Assembly (NCBI GenBank): GCA_022827945.1
Contig: JAJEIT010000019.1
Span: 1 to 34,845 of the forward strand
Direction of reading: 5' to 3'
Length of the DNA stretch: 34,845 nucleotides
Source: Dehalococcoidia bacterium
Lineage (GTDB): Bacteria > Chloroflexota > Dehalococcoidia > Tepidiformales > Tepidiformaceae
A model generated the notes under the pieces. The model ran no database searches. It was not told the DNA's origin and saw nothing but the letters and a program-made list of their open reading frames with translations. Shown piece by piece: positions 7,087-26,243 of this stretch (position 1 is the first letter of the stretch; each line of letters opens with the position of its first letter). The position numbers and the translations under genes are program-made.

Positions 7087-8256
7087 TCAACGCGCGCCCT
7101 GCCGGTCGTGGCGCCGAAGCATGGCGGTGGCAGTGGCCGTGAGCGGCCCCGCGCGCTGCGCCTCGCGCGCATAGCTCGACTCGCCCCGCTGCACCGCGAA
7201 CAGCGATGACCACAGGAACGGCGTGTACTCGCTCGCCAGCATCCAGGGCCGCCGCGCGCGCTTGAGCATCCCGTAGAACATGTAGGCGATGCCCCGCGCC
7301 GCATCCAGCTCCGGCTGGATCTCGTCCTCCAGCTCCTCCTGGTAACGACGCATGTCGCCGTCGCCCGCGATCGCCCGCAGCGCCGCCCGCGCCGCCAGCC
7401 GCCCCGAGTGGATCGCGTAGGAGATGCCTTCCGCCGTGAACTCGTCCGCCAGCCCGGCCGCGTCCCCCGCGAGCACAACGCGCTCCCCCGCCACCGTCTC
7501 CCCGCCCCGCCGGAAGCGGATCTTGTGCCCCCGCGCTATCTCGACCTCCGCTTCCCGCAGCCCCAGCCGCTCCAGGTAGCGCTCTACCAGCGCCTTCATC
7601 CGCCCCGCCTCCTCCTGTGGCAGCACGATGCCGATCGAGAGCAGCTCCGCCTTCGGGAAGAGCCACGCGTATCCCCATGGGTCGTACCCGAGGTCGATCA
7701 GCGTCGTCGCCTCCCCCACGGAGGCGTCACTCGGGCGGCCCCGCACCTCCACCTCCCAGGCCGCGCACTCCGCCAGGTCGCCCCCCAGCCCCGCCATCCG
7801 CCCCACCGGCGAATGCGCCCCGTCCGCGCAGATCAGCGTCTCCGCCTCCGCCTCGAAACCGTCGGCTCGGATGCGCGCCCGCCCGTTCAGGTCGAGCTCT
7901 CGCACGACCGTGCCCGTCCGCAGCTCCGCGCCTGCGCGCTGCGCGTGCTCCAGCAGCAGCATGTCGAAGCGGTCGCGCATGACCATGCGCGCGAACGGCC
8001 CTCGCGAGCGCTTCGTGAACGCCATCTTCCCCCGCGCCGACATCTCGATCCGCGAGACCGAGTCCTCGACCACGCTGTCGATGGGAAACGGCAGCATCCG
8101 CTCCGCGCGCAGGGGAACACCGCCCCCGCAGGCCTTGTAGCGCGGCCACTCCGCCCGGTCGACCACGAGCACCCGCGCGTCCGCCGCGGCCAGCTCGCGA
8201 GCCGTCGTGCTCCCCGCCGGTCCCGCCCCCACCACGATCGCGTCGAATGTGCCCAT
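7087..8256 (-). CDS. geranylgeranyl reductase family FAD-dependent oxidoreductase
   Basis: A 389-aa flavoprotein of the GGR/ChlP group, which saturates isoprenoid chains (archaeal-type lipids, chlorophyll phytyl chains, menaquinone side chains). The FAD-binding GAGPAGS lies at residues 10-16 with D33 at the end of strand 2. The family motif KACGGGVP lies at 41-48. The second FAD motif VVLAGDAAGLADEFTAEGISYAIHSG is intact, as is the PKAELLSIGIVL substrate-domain strand. In a bacterium without archaeal lipids, a role in menaquinone or polyprenol saturation is the simplest guess. The ATG is preceded by TAGAAT plus 6 nt and no Shine-Dalgarno. Its neighbours suggest no pathway. Confidence 0.86.
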   Translation of the reverse strand: MGTFDAIVVGAGPAGSTTARELAAADARVLVVDRAEWPRYKACGGGVPLRAERMLPFPIDSVVEDSVSRIEMSARGKMAFTKRSRGPFARMVMRDRFDMLLLEHAQRAGAELRTGTVVRELDLNGRARIRADGFEAEAETLICADGAHSPVGRMAGLGGDLAECAAWEVEVRGRPSDASVGEATTLIDLGYDPWGYAWLFPKAELLSIGIVLPQEEAGRMKALVERYLERLGLREAEVEIARGHKIRFRRGGETVAGERVVLAGDAAGLADEFTAEGISYAIHSGRLAARAALRAIAGDGDMRRYQEELEDEIQPELDAARGIAYMFYGMLKRARRPWMLASEYTPFLWSSLFAVQRGESSYAREAQRAGPLTATATAMLRRHDRQGAR

Positions 8257-21017: not shown

Positions 21018-21827
21018 CTAGTCGTTGAGCGCGTACCCCGCCCGGATCCCCTCGATCCGGGCCTCGACCCCCGCCTTCGTGTCTTCGTGCGTCACGATGT
21101 AGAGGTGCTCGTTCCGGATCGCGTCGAGCACCCGCGCCGCCACCTCGGAGGGGGGCATGCCCTGCGAAATCCCCTGGCGGATGGGCTCGGCGTAGTCGGG
21201 AACGTCCTCGGGACCGCCGTGCGCGTCGGGCCGGTTCCGCCCCGCCTCGACGATCTTCGTCGCGACCCCGCCCGGGCACAGCACCGACACCCCAATGTTC
21301 ACCGCTTCGAGGTCGTGGTTCAGGTGCTCGGACAGCCCCACGACCGCCTGCTTCGAGGCCACGTACGAGGCCATCCCCGGAGGCGCGAACAGCCCCGCGC
21401 TCGACGAGGTGTTCACGAGGTGCCCCTCGCCCTGCTCGATCATCCGCGGCAGGAACTGCGTCACCCCGTTGATCACGCCGTCCAGGTTCACGCCCATTAC
21501 CCAGTCCCAGTCCGAGTCGCTCATCTCGGCGGCGGAGCGGAAGGTCACGACGCCCGCGTTGTTGCAGAGCGCGTGCACGCCCCCGAACGTCTCGAACGCC
21601 TTGTCGGCCAGCTCCTTCACGGAAGCGCGGTCGGCGACGTCGGTGCGGACCGCGATCGCGCTCCCGCCCGTGTCGTTGATGGAGTTCGCCACCCCTTCGG
21701 CGGCGCTCAGATCGATATCCGAGACCACGACCGACATCCCCTCGGCCGCGAACGCGCGGCACAGCGCCTCGCCGATGCCGCTCCCTCCACCAGTCACGAC
21801 TGCCGTCTTCCCACTTCCGAGTTCCAT
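21018..21827 (-). CDS. SDR family oxidoreductase
   Basis: A 269-aa short-chain dehydrogenase. It has the nucleotide motif TGGGSGIGEAL near residue 12, DID at the end of strand 2, NNAGVVTF, VNLDGVINGV, the serine run NTSSSAGL and the catalytic YVASK followed by VLCPGGVAT. The active-site set is complete. GGGAGG lies about 10 nt before the ATG and a TAAGAT box about 30 nt before it. The substrate is unknown. It is divergent from the halogenase gene with about 100 bases between them and is a separate unit from padR-modABC. Confidence 0.92.
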   Translation of the reverse strand: MELGSGKTAVVTGGGSGIGEALCRAFAAEGMSVVVSDIDLSAAEGVANSINDTGGSAIAVRTDVADRASVKELADKAFETFGGVHALCNNAGVVTFRSAAEMSDSDWDWVMGVNLDGVINGVTQFLPRMIEQGEGHLVNTSSSAGLFAPPGMASYVASKQAVVGLSEHLNHDLEAVNIGVSVLCPGGVATKIVEAGRNRPDAHGGPEDVPDYAEPIRQGISQGMPPSEVAARVLDAIRNEHLYIVTHEDTKAGVEARIEGIRAGYALND

Positions 21828-21930: not shown

Positions 21931-23454
21931 GTGACACAGCCGCAGGGCGAGTACAAGACGGTCGGCATCATCGGGGGCGGCACCGCCGGCTACCTGACCG
22001 CGCTCGCCCTGCGCAAGAAGCTCCCCCACCTGCGCGTCACCCTCATCGAGTCCCCCACGATCCCCATCATCGGTGTCGGCGAGGGCACGACCCCCATCAT
22101 GGTCAAGTTCCTCCACGCCTACCTCGAACGCGACGTGCACGAGCTCTACCGCAAGGTGCAGCCCACCTGGAAGTTCGGCGTCAAGTTCGAGTGGGGACAG
22201 CCCGGCGACTACTACTTCAACTACGCCTTCCACCCCGGCCCCATCCTCGACTCCGTCTACTACGGCGGCGAGTTCAACGACTACTCTCTCGGCTCCCTGC
22301 TCATCTCCAACGAACGCGCGCCCATCGTCACCAACGAGGGCGGCCAGCTCACCTCCCTCATCGACCGCATCCCCTTCGCCTACCACCTCGATAACGGCCG
22401 CTTCGTCGCCTACCTGAAAGAGCAGGCCGTTGCCGACGGTGTCGAGCTGCTTGAGCGCTCCGTGACAGACTTCATTCCCGAGGAGGACGGCGACAGCCTC
22501 GACCACATCGTCACCGACGACGGCGAGGAGCGGCGCTTCGACCTCTACGTCGACTGCACCGGCTTCCGTGCCGAGATCATCGGCGAGACCCTCGGCTCGC
22601 CCTTCCACAGCTACGAAGGCAGCCTCTTCTGCGACCGCGCCATCGTCGCCAACGTGCCCCACGGCGGGCATATCAAGCCCTTCACCACCGCCGAGACGAT
22701 GAACGCCGGCTGGTGCTGGAATACCCCCTCCGTCGAGGACGACCACCGCGGCTACGTCTTCTCCTCGCAGTTCCTCTCCGATGACGAGGCCGCCGAGGAG
22801 ATGCGCTCGAAGAACCCCGGCATGGGCGACCACCGCGTCATACGCTTCAAGACCGGCCGCCGCGAGCACTTCTGGAAGGGGAACGTGGTCGCCATCGGAA
22901 ACTCCTACGGCTTCGTCGAGCCCCTTGAGTCGACCGGGCTGCATATGATCATCCTCGAGATCAACCAGCTCGTCCTGAACTTCCCCCGCTCGAAGAAGGA
23001 CACCGCCATCCGCGGCATCGTGAACCGCACTCTCAACGCCCACTGGGATGACGTGCGCTGGTTCCTCGCCGTCCACTACCGCTTCAACAAGAAGCTCGAC
23101 ACCCCCTTCTGGCAGGCCTGCCGCAACGCCGTCGACATCGGCGGCGCGCAGGAGCGCGTCGACCTCTTCCGCGAGCGCACCCCCCTCACCTACCGCCAGT
23201 CGCAGTTCTTCAAGCCCGAGGAGGTCTTTGGCGACTTCGCCTACGACGTGCTCCTCCTCGGCCAGCGCGTGCAGGGTCGCTACCTGGAGGCGAGCCAGCC
23301 CCGCGTCGAGTGGCAGAAGCGCGTCGACGGGCTGCGCGAGCTGGCCGGCAACGCCCTCACCCAAGAGCGCGCCTTCGAGACCCTCAACGGCGCCCCCCCG
23401 CAGATCCTCGGCAGTATGGTCACGTCCCCCAACACCTGGGTCGTCTGGCCCTAG
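21931..23454 (+). CDS. flavin-dependent (tryptophan-halogenase-type) halogenase
   Basis: A 507-aa protein of the tryptophan halogenase family, which uses FADH2, O2 and halide to form HOCl/HOBr and a lysine-bound haloamine. The FAD motif GGGTAGYLTAL is at 15-25, GVGEGTTP at 48-55, and the catalytic lysine fits K81 in TWKFGVKF (K79 in PrnA/RebH). The WxWxIP signature reads W261-C-W263-N-T-P266, with Thr for Ile. The C-terminal active-site strand GFVEPLESTGLH (E330, S334) is intact. It starts with GTG. No flavin reductase, NRPS or PKS lies nearby; an APH-type kinase follows at 10 bp. The substrate is unknown, and a non-halogenating monooxygenase is possible because of the altered motif. Confidence 0.9.
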   Translation: MTQPQGEYKTVGIIGGGTAGYLTALALRKKLPHLRVTLIESPTIPIIGVGEGTTPIMVKFLHAYLERDVHELYRKVQPTWKFGVKFEWGQPGDYYFNYAFHPGPILDSVYYGGEFNDYSLGSLLISNERAPIVTNEGGQLTSLIDRIPFAYHLDNGRFVAYLKEQAVADGVELLERSVTDFIPEEDGDSLDHIVTDDGEERRFDLYVDCTGFRAEIIGETLGSPFHSYEGSLFCDRAIVANVPHGGHIKPFTTAETMNAGWCWNTPSVEDDHRGYVFSSQFLSDDEAAEEMRSKNPGMGDHRVIRFKTGRREHFWKGNVVAIGNSYGFVEPLESTGLHMIILEINQLVLNFPRSKKDTAIRGIVNRTLNAHWDDVRWFLAVHYRFNKKLDTPFWQACRNAVDIGGAQERVDLFRERTPLTYRQSQFFKPEEVFGDFAYDVLLLGQRVQGRYLEASQPRVEWQKRVDGLRELAGNALTQERAFETLNGAPPQILGSMVTSPNTWVVWP

Positions 23455-23464
23455 GCGGTCCGCG

Positions 23465-24433
23465 ATGGCTGCCATCCCGCCGCTGCCGCCCCAGGGCGCG
23501 CGCCTGCACTGGAAGCAGGCCCCGAAGCGCCTCCGTGATGCCTTCGAGGCCTGGGCCGGAAGCCCCGTGGCCGAGGCCGTCACCCAGCCCTCCGGCTTCT
23601 CGCCGGGCGTGGCCGCGCGCGTTCGCCTCGCGGACGGCCGGCGGGTGTTCGTGAAGGCCGTCGGCCCCGACATCAACCCCGACAGCGCCGGCATCCACCG
23701 CCGCGAGCTTCGCATCATCTCCGGCATGCCGGAGGATGTGCCCGCCCCCCGCCTCCTCTGGTCGCGCGACGAGGGCGAAGGCGGCTGGGTCGCCCTCGCC
23801 TTCGAGGACATCGAGGGCGAACACCCCCAGCAGCCCTGGGAGCTGCGCGAGCTCGACCGCGTCCTCGAGGCGCTCGTCGCCCTCGGCGAACGGCTGACGC
23901 CGAACCCCTTGCCCCCCGGCGCCGCCCCCAGCGCCTCCGAGACTTTCCCGAGCGACGCGTGGCGAACGCTCCGCGACGAAGGGGGTCGTCGTCCCCGGAA
24001 CCTCCCCCCCTGGTACCGCAGCAACCTCGAAATGCTCGCCGAGCTTGAGGCGGCCGTCCCCGAAGCCGTGGTGGGCGACACCCTCGTCCACTACGACATT
24101 CGCGCCGACAACATCCTGCTCTCGCCCGATCGCGTCTGGTTCCTCGACTGGCCCTGGGCCTGCGTTGGCGCCCCCTGGGTCGACGTCATCGTCCTGGCGC
24201 CCAGTGTCACGATGCAGGGCGGCCCCCCTCCCGAGGAGGTCGTTGCTGCCCACCCCGCCTGTCGCACCGCCGACTCGGAGAGCGTGACGGCCGTGGTGGC
24301 CGCCCTGGCCGGCGCCTATACGGAGTGGGGCTCGCGGCCCCCTCCGCCCGGCCTCCCCACCCTCCGCCCCTTCCAGCAGGCGCAGGCATCTGTCGCGCGC
24401 GACTGGCTCCTGCGGAGGCTGGGCGAGGCCTAG
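23465..24433 (+). CDS. APH/choline-kinase-type phosphotransferase
   Basis: A 322-aa protein of the aminoglycoside phosphotransferase fold. The N-lobe has RVFVKAVGP as the likely ATP-binding lysine strand. The catalytic loop is HYDIRADN (H209, D211, N216), and the metal-binding aspartate D228 lies in WFLDWPW. The hydrophobic WALAFEDIEGE-type hinge (reading WVALAFEDIEGEH) is present. Such proteins phosphorylate small molecules (antibiotics, choline, sugars, acyl-CoA-linked substrates). It begins 10 nt after the halogenase stop, so co-transcription and a shared pathway are likely. One CTAG at 24430-24433 supplies stop codons for this gene and the convergent one. Confidence 0.85.
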   Translation: MAAIPPLPPQGARLHWKQAPKRLRDAFEAWAGSPVAEAVTQPSGFSPGVAARVRLADGRRVFVKAVGPDINPDSAGIHRRELRIISGMPEDVPAPRLLWSRDEGEGGWVALAFEDIEGEHPQQPWELRELDRVLEALVALGERLTPNPLPPGAAPSASETFPSDAWRTLRDEGGRRPRNLPPWYRSNLEMLAELEAAVPEAVVGDTLVHYDIRADNILLSPDRVWFLDWPWACVGAPWVDVIVLAPSVTMQGGPPPEEVVAAHPACRTADSESVTAVVAALAGAYTEWGSRPPPPGLPTLRPFQQAQASVARDWLLRRLGEA

Positions 24434-24446
24434 CCCTGCCCCTCGC
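24423..24446. terminator. hairpin across the kinase / orphan gene convergent stop codons
   Basis: GCGAGG (24423-24428) and CCTCGC (24441-24446) form a 6-bp stem with a 12-nt loop that contains the shared CTAG stop of both genes. No T-tract is present. It may separate the two transcripts. Confidence 0.35.
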
Positions 24447-25701
24447 TCATCCCCCTGGCGATGCGTTCGCCGGCCGCCGCCGCGTCCTCGAACGCGACCG
24501 CCTGGCGGCTGAGCACCGGGTACAGCGTGAAGATCGGCGTGTTGTACGGGATCACCGCCGACTCAACCTCCGGCTGGAGCGCGAGGTGCAGGTTCACGTA
24601 GTTGTAGCTGAGCCCTTCTTGCCAGGGCTCGCCGCCGCTGCGCTCGTACTCCTCCGTCGTCCCGAGCCCGTACGTGCGCGTCATCAGACCGGTCGCCGCC
24701 GTCAACCCGAGGTCGCCCAGCTCCGGCGCCCCCTGGATCAGGATGGCCACCTGTGAGGCGTCGAACCACACCTTCAGGTTGCAGCTCACCTGGATGTAGT
24801 TCCCAAGGCTGCCGAGGTGCTGCAGCACCGTCAGCGGGAACGCCAGCTCCGGCGGCGCGTTGCCCGGAGCCGGCCCGTCGAAGCGGAACTCCGGCTCCTT
24901 TACGCCCGAGGCCGAGATGTACACGAGATTCGGGTCGTCGACTGGCACCCCGACGACCGTCCCGTCCCGGTCGCTCGTGAGCTGCCCCATCTGATAACGC
25001 AGCGGGAAGGAGTAGCCCTCCTTCCCGTAGAAGATGCGCACGCCCGTCTCCAGCGGCTCCTCCGGCGTGCGGCTCAGCTTCAGGTCGAACGGCAGCATCA
25101 CGTGGAAGGCGTGCGTGCGCGCGTTCATGAACGGGCCGCAGGCCCCCTCGAACTCTTTGTGGATGGCCGTGTTCTCCGGCTCGAACTGCTGCGCCGGGCC
25201 CGTGTAGCTCTGCGCCCGCCGCGCCTCCGGCGTCAGGTGGTACCGGTCCTGGTAGTGCGCCGCCGCCCGCTTCTGGGCGATGTCGGTGAAGTACTCCGGG
25301 GCCATGCTCTCGACGATGATGTGTTCGCGCTCCCCCGTGTCCGAGCGGTTCACGCGCACGGCCTCGTGGTACCGATCCAGCTCGTGCGCGGTCTTCCGCA
25401 GCTCCTGCCCCACCTGTCCCTCGACCGGCGTTCCCGCCAGCCGCGTGCGCGGCAGCAGCGCCTGCGCCCGCTGCAGGAAGTCGAGCTTCGCGCTGTAGCG
25501 CCGCGGCTCCGGCGCGAACGACTGCGCCGCCGCCAGCAGCAGGCTCACCTGCTCATCAGGCAGCAGCCCCAGCGCTTCGAGGTCGTTATCCCGGATGAAG
25601 GCGGCCGCCAGCGGTGCGAACGCCTGCTCCCGCCGGATGCCCAGCGTGAGCAGGTAGTTCAGGTAGCTGCGCGCCTCTTCCGGCGTCATCGTCTCGGCCA
25701 T
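24430..25701 (-). CDS. 423-aa conserved-looking protein of unknown function
   Basis: No family recognised. The protein is soluble, without signal peptide or membrane segment. The N-terminal third is helical (MTPEEARSYLNYLLTLGIRREQAF, then LLPDEQVSLLLAAAQSF). The rest looks beta-rich with many aromatic residues: FHVMLPFDLKLSRTPEEP, VRIFYGKEGYSFPLRYQMGQL, VYISASGVKEPEFRFDGP and YNYVNLHLALQPEVESA. An uncharged, catalytic-looking motif is not evident. The start ATG follows TACGAT plus 9 nt without a Shine-Dalgarno. It overlaps the kinase gene by 4 nt tail-to-tail. Clean frame and codon use leave little doubt that it is a gene. Confidence 0.7.
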   Translation of the reverse strand: MAETMTPEEARSYLNYLLTLGIRREQAFAPLAAAFIRDNDLEALGLLPDEQVSLLLAAAQSFAPEPRRYSAKLDFLQRAQALLPRTRLAGTPVEGQVGQELRKTAHELDRYHEAVRVNRSDTGEREHIIVESMAPEYFTDIAQKRAAAHYQDRYHLTPEARRAQSYTGPAQQFEPENTAIHKEFEGACGPFMNARTHAFHVMLPFDLKLSRTPEEPLETGVRIFYGKEGYSFPLRYQMGQLTSDRDGTVVGVPVDDPNLVYISASGVKEPEFRFDGPAPGNAPPELAFPLTVLQHLGSLGNYIQVSCNLKVWFDASQVAILIQGAPELGDLGLTAATGLMTRTYGLGTTEEYERSGGEPWQEGLSYNYVNLHLALQPEVESAVIPYNTPIFTLYPVLSRQAVAFEDAAAAGERIARGMSEGQG

Positions 25702-25784: not shown

Positions 25785-26243
25785 ATGGTTGGCCAGGCCG
25801 AAGTCGAGATCGCACGCAAGCTCTTCGAGGAAGGCTGGAGCGGAGGACACGTTGATGCGCCCCTCCAGTTCATGACCGAGGACGTTGTCATGCGCGACAT
25901 CGTCGGCCACGCCGAGCCCATGCGCGGTCACGACGCCGTCCGCGAGTTCTGGGCGGCCGCCGCCGACACGCTGAAGGTGCTCCCCGAGGAGATCTACGTC
26001 GCCGACACCGGCGTGGTCGTGATGTGGATGGCCTATGGGCAGATCCCACAGGACGCCAAGGAGAACGCCGGGCGCTGGGGAACCGCCGAGGGCGTTTCCC
26101 GCCTCGAGTTCCGCGACGGCAAGGTCTGCCTCGAGGTCGACTACTGGCACGGTGGCCAGGGCGTCTGCGACGACTGGGAGGCGCACTGGAACGCCCGTCG
26201 TGCCCGGCCCTGGCGCGAGCTAGGCGCCATCACGGGCGCCTAG
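25785..26243 (+). CDS. NTF2-like / SnoaL-like domain protein
   Basis: A 152-aa cone-shaped NTF2-fold protein. The pattern EIARKLFEEGWSGGHVDAPLQFMTEDVVMRDIVGHAEPMRGHDAVREFWAAA (split over residues about 8-58) is typical of SnoaL-like proteins, with a helix, then the strand carrying the first acidic residues, then GHDAVREFW. The end RLEFRDGKVCLEVDYW also fits. Members act as isomerases, cyclases or hydrolases or just bind ligands; nothing indicates which here. GGGAGAGG lies 7 nt before the ATG. Its stop codon is within a long perfect inverted repeat shared with the convergent gene. Confidence 0.82.
   Translation: MVGQAEVEIARKLFEEGWSGGHVDAPLQFMTEDVVMRDIVGHAEPMRGHDAVREFWAAAADTLKVLPEEIYVADTGVVVMWMAYGQIPQDAKENAGRWGTAEGVSRLEFRDGKVCLEVDYWHGGQGVCDDWEAHWNARRARPWRELGAITGA

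Follow-up and report, generated by a model that had tools for sequence, protein, structure and literature searches.

The halogenase gene and its surroundings

The window, a stretch of 34,845 bases that makes up contig C59 of a 2.85 Mb Dehalococcoidia genome in 99 contigs, carries an intact gene for a protein that matches the flavin-dependent halogenase family PF04820 (Trp_halogenase) with 385 bits (E 5.7e-115), against a curated Pfam cut-off of 21. Exactly 10 nt after its stop codon, on the same strand, begins the gene of an APH-type kinase (Table 1). Both genes had been recognized in a first-pass annotation of the same DNA, and coordinates and family matches agree with it: the halogenase has its catalytic Lys (K81), its FAD motif (GGGTAG) and its EPLEST segment, and the kinase matches PF01636. 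The annotation had also remarked that WCWNTP replaces WxWxIP, a long-used signature of flavin-dependent halogenases, and its numbering of the changed residue as T265 is correct. Since this diagnostic motif is altered, we place the protein in PF04820 by homology and treat its halogenating activity as a prediction. A scan for promoters and terminators found no signal. Elsewhere in the window, a FAD_binding_3 protein (7087-8256) matches Trp_halogenase weakly (29.8 bits).

Table 1. Positions of the features discussed, in window coordinates unless a locus is named.
Feature	Position	Strand	Start, evidence or remark
Short-chain dehydrogenase; oriented divergently to the halogenase, gap of 103 nt	21018-21827	-	
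Flavin-dependent halogenase, MibH side of PF04820, 507 aa	21931-23454	+	GTG start; PF04820, 5UAO match, tree
GGGTAG dinucleotide (FAD) binding motif, residues 15-20	21973-21990	+	sequence motif
G52 (GVGEG vs GVGEA), opening the Trp1 substrate motif; fixed in the lineage	22084-22086	+	alignment
Catalytic Lys K81, in WKFGVKF	22171-22173	+	by motif, Lys79 of PrnA/RebH; Lys in all aligned sequences
WCWNTP, residues 261-266, WxWxIP variant with T265	22711-22728	+	alignment
EPLEST, residues 330-335; E333 and S334/T335 halide site	22918-22935	+	alignment
APH-type kinase, 322 aa, genus-limited neighbour	23465-24433	+	ATG start; PF01636 64.8 bits, E 1.3e-17; alignment
Protein matching no known family, convergent with the kinase	24430-25701	-	
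SnoaL-like protein, a neighbour kept in both genera	25785-26243	+	
Family-5 binding protein and two Opp permeases, in the kinase's place	L031:3757-7770 and L033:288-4122		two other genera (G016, G018)

The closest relatives by sequence are MAGs of Dehalococcoidia/Chloroflexi, among them UBA2991 and one Tepidiformaceae chromosome. Members of the genus have been recorded in marine water and in sponges, and the window genome may itself come from a sponge. Each of the nine genus genomes encodes the full-length halogenase (the eight orthologs are 84-97% identical to the window enzyme), and so does G016, a genome of a sister genus (69%). Two further genomes have fragments at contig ends, an N-terminus in G012 and a C-terminus in G018. 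GGGTAG, K81, E333, S334 and T335 are retained in all ten orthologs, and dN/dS, computed against species with unsaturated dS, is 0.06-0.21, which indicates that purifying selection on the gene is strong. Such conservation in other genomes, together with these dN/dS values, argues for more than a chance open reading frame. The branch is rare: a search of 400 genomes of the phylum at E 1e-60 returned, besides the window genome, a single 40% relative, and among 394 Actinomycetes genomes at E 1e-90 the only MibH-like gene was that of Microtetraspora.

As for the other neighbours, the short-chain dehydrogenase is kept in 9/9 genus genomes and has a 49% counterpart beside the G016 halogenase. One genus member, G004, has a gene for a 558-aa protein (L034:8312-9988) inserted between dehydrogenase and halogenase, the order of halogenase and kinase being intact. 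The protein convergent with the kinase has exactly the distribution of the full-length halogenase, being present in those ten genomes and absent from 28 other genomes of the family, a co-occurrence that could be explained by the shared ancestry of the two genera; it gave no Pfam or NCBIfam match and nothing credible in a PDB profile search. In G016, and next to the fragment of G018, an Opp-type (peptide-type) ABC transporter (Table 1) lies directly downstream of the halogenase. Its linkage to the halogenase lends the function proposed below only weak support, because such SBP5/Opp systems are common and the Opp genes of the host genus, where several such systems exist, are either 5-14 kb from the halogenase or were not seen.

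Placement with MibH

The best relative of the halogenase in the PDB is MibH (5UAO), with 468 bits over the full length, ahead of PyrH (224) and BrvH (200); carrier- and phenol-type halogenase structures reach at most 31 bits in the same comparison. Identity to MibH is 45% (full length) and to the BrvH/Xcc4156 group 33%. Phylogenetic placement, which the first-pass annotation had named as a check, puts the window gene together with MibH, the Microtetraspora, Archangium and Sorangium enzymes and one from a Streptomyces plasmid, with 100/100 support, in trees of few references from which phenolic and pyrrole halogenases, SrpI and ChlH were left out. PyrH, BrvH, Xcc4156 and 9luq fall outside this group, again at 100/100.

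A pattern search of the ten orthologs found the Trp4 motif in none of them. This motif, which holds tryptophan by its amino and carboxyl groups, was defined for halogenases of free tryptophan (groups A and B); MibH and BrvH do not have it and do not take free tryptophan, the substrate of MibH being a lanthipeptide (PMC8269204). Placement with MibH and absence of Trp4 make free tryptophan a less likely substrate of the predicted enzyme, and a free indole-type molecule is possible.

We inspected stretches of 13-25 kb around the four closest relatives outside the two genera. In Sorangium (L012, a MAG) a lantibiotic dehydratase lies about 2.7 kb upstream of the MibH-type halogenase; in Microtetraspora a SagD-type YcaO protein is encoded about 5 kb away, and in Archangium a radical SAM enzyme is nearby. 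On the plasmid of Streptomyces sp. NBC_00557 (L068, 282840-308279) the halogenase stands beside an NRPS, a tryptophan 2,3-dioxygenase and a flavin reductase, a possible candidate cluster for a peptide containing halogenated Trp or kynurenine. This NRPS-type locus speaks against a clade devoted exclusively to RiPPs, and the four neighbourhoods together point to a clade that is linked to peptides without being limited to RiPPs. The Sorangium genome has a second copy of the halogenase elsewhere (L067), 50% identical to the window enzyme.

A halogenase without its usual cluster

No NRPS, PKS or PF01613 flavin reductase was present among the window proteins scanned, as the first-pass annotation had stated. 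Its view that the gene lies outside any visible biosynthetic cluster holds for the genus too: LanC-like, YcaO and NHLP leader families gave no match in 11 genomes (the NHLP search having no positive control), nor did NRPS condensation domains in 10 genomes. A precursor peptide encoded at the locus itself was considered and rejected, the gaps around the halogenase being just 10-103 nt. By these searches, the gene appears to encode a halogenase of MibH type that lacks the cluster usually found with it. Against a peptide substrate stands the finding that neither a precursor peptide nor a RiPP enzyme turned up in the genomes searched; as RiPP and NRPS machinery went undetected, such a peptide would have no identified source.

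The same result lends weight to a stand-alone enzyme that halogenates free L-tryptophan or indole, yielding for example a halo-indole signal or defence compound, and there is a precedent in BrvH, a halogenase mined from metagenomes that takes indole (PMC5945002). The window enzyme nevertheless branches outside both the BrvH and the PyrH groups and has no Trp4 motif, and MibH itself is without activity on free tryptophan (PMC8269204), so that we consider this reading unlikely.

The flavin reductase domain PF01613 has four matches in the window genome, on contigs C37, C57, C61 and C89 and none on C59, and each genus genome has four such domains and G016 three. With these domains elsewhere in the genome, FADH2 can come in trans.

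A fixed change in the WxWxIP motif

We aligned the motifs of the 10 orthologs with those of 20 other halogenases. The change at residue 265 proved to be real and stronger than the first-pass annotation had said, being fixed in the lineage: Thr in 10/10 orthologs, Ile in 20/20 comparators. Two of the comparators have lost the Pro of the motif, both with Ile in place, and none has lost the Ile. Four further substitutions, at conserved positions, are fixed along with T265. Position 52 is Gly in all orthologs (Ala in 17, Ser in 2 and Gly in 1 of the 20 comparators), and the others are F82 (Leu in 17/20), V84 (Ile in 18/20) and F181 (Val in 19/20). Three of the four adjoin the catalytic Lys or sit in the Trp1 motif, since F82 and V84 come shortly after K81 and G52 belongs to Trp1. 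V84, at Lys+3, corresponds to residue 82 of Thal/RebH, a position associated with regioselectivity. The Trp1 substrate motif is used here as in PMC8269204. Both Trp and the Pro of WCWNTP, as well as K81, E333, S334 and T335, are all kept.

A proposed role of WxWxIP is the suppression of hydroxylation, that is, of monooxygenase action (PMC10696468, PMC5945002), and a 2023 review called its role at the level of residues unresolved (PMC10696468). With I265T in a motif proposed to bar monooxygenase activity, halogenation by the window enzyme remains a prediction. The lineage might even have turned into a flavin monooxygenase or an uncoupled oxidase, as the complete fixation of Thr, the four accompanying changes and the proposed blocking role of the motif would suggest. 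An enzyme that had lost halogenation should, however, show relaxed constraint on the Lys and the halide site, both of which are conserved together with the remaining motif residues; we hold such a conversion to be quite unlikely.

The kinase is a neighbour within the genus

The first-pass annotation had seen in halogenase and kinase a functional pair, which could halogenate and then phosphorylate a small free molecule. Such a two-step pathway on a free aromatic compound draws on the 10-nt spacing on one strand and on the kinase's position next to the halogenase in 8/9 genus genomes, with similar short gaps. Further, the kinase catalytic residues (K64, H209-x-D211-x4-N216, D228) are invariant in 8 orthologs, and the pair is intact in G004 despite the gene inserted upstream. 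All neighbours are syntenic within the genus, however, so the co-location of these two says little. In addition, G008 has no kinase, the next gene following directly after a halogenase that is intact and 89% identical, and in the sister genus (G016) the kinase is absent, with a family-5 solute-binding protein and two Opp permeases in its place. Conversely, G022 has a 49% relative of the kinase, and no halogenase was found there. The kinase also evolves faster (dN/dS 0.14-0.32 vs 0.06-0.21).

The kinase is thus not conserved as a partner above the level of the genus, an outcome that goes against the proposed functional unit on the annotation's own terms. Given its absence from G008 and G016, halogenation followed by phosphorylation is no conserved pathway, and we regard it as very unlikely. 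In the gene tree G004, which has the kinase, branches before G008, so that one gain and one loss of the kinase is the simplest reading. From this distribution we take the kinase to be a genus-level addition that the predicted halogenation would not need.

Comparisons of the kinase pointed to no particular substrate class. Sequence comparison with the PDB at E 0.1 gave no relative of it, profile comparison gave no convincing one, and its NCBIfam matches lie far below the cut-offs. A link to class V lanthipeptides through its weak LxmK match was considered and rejected (20 bits against a cut-off of 315). The structure models of the kinase (AlphaFold, pLDDT 47) and of the convergent protein (pLDDT 53) were kept out of fold searches. 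Contig C49 of the window genome encodes another FAD enzyme from the halogenase superfamily (L036:5094-6749, 551 aa), which keeps WLWAIP and has Val at the aligned position of the catalytic Lys; an ORF downstream of it (L036, 3674-4546) has an HxDxxxxN segment that looks APH-like by eye.

Proposed function and comparison with known systems

With somewhat better than even confidence, we favour a working two-component halogenase of MibH descent, its reductase encoded elsewhere, that acts on an aromatic group of a substrate probably other than free tryptophan, with the kinase dispensable. Homology, catalytic residues, phylogeny, distribution and selection are observed here, and the activity, the halide, the substrate and the flavin supply are predicted from them. 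FADH2 would be delivered by a flavin reductase from another locus, and the flavin peroxide would oxidise halide to HOX, the choice between chloride and bromide not being readable from sequence. HOX would pass to K81/E333, and an aromatic group, most likely an indole or tryptophanyl group, would be halogenated. The substrate would be a peptide or a different molecule that bears an indole, either taken up or synthesized in trans, and the changes A52G, L82F, I84V, V181F and I265T amount to a remodelling of the HOX/substrate region in this lineage.

More tentatively, it is possible, if doubtful, that a MibH-derived lineage underwent natural remodelling of its halide/substrate region, including the otherwise invariant Ile of WxWxIP, and that, with no known biosynthetic cluster, its substrate is a peptide (the cell's own or imported) or some other molecule that is not an amino acid. 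Having fixed Thr in place of this Ile while under purifying selection, the lineage offers a natural experiment on the role of WxWxIP, and, if this proposal is true, it provides a natural test of whether the motif really separates halogenation from oxygenation.

Among known systems the closest is MibH, the Trp-5-chlorinase of the antibiotic peptide NAI-107/microbisporicin, which shares with the window enzyme its clade, 45% identity, the catalytic residues and the absence of Trp4. The two differ in that the host genus here has no lanthipeptide cyclase detectable by LanC, and in the five lineage-fixed changes, with T265 and G52 in place of Ile and Ala. ChlH (chlorolassin) and SrpI (a sponge proteusin), compared here by description only, are Trp halogenases that act on peptides; ChlH is 58% identical to MibH (PMC12518702), and mining that used MibH led to SrpI, which comes from sponge microbiomes (PMC12615548). 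Unlike these systems, the 11 genomes here gave no NHLP leader, in the search without positive control, and the loop reported to contact the leader in SrpI, PQQVS (PMC10858898), is not matched by PGPIL, which stands at the equivalent residues 102-106 of the window enzyme when counted from the catalytic Lys. The indole halogenases BrvH and Xcc4156 resemble it in having neither a Trp4 lid nor a site of the free-Trp type, but they are only 33% identical and form a separate branch at 100/100. Finally, putative Trp halogenase clades from Aplysina sponges, known as PCR fragments only and likened to the window gene by description, were attributed to Chloroflexi by correlation with abundance (PMC6644159). 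Beside that earlier attribution, Chloroflexota of a marine and sponge genus now gain a concrete halogenase candidate.
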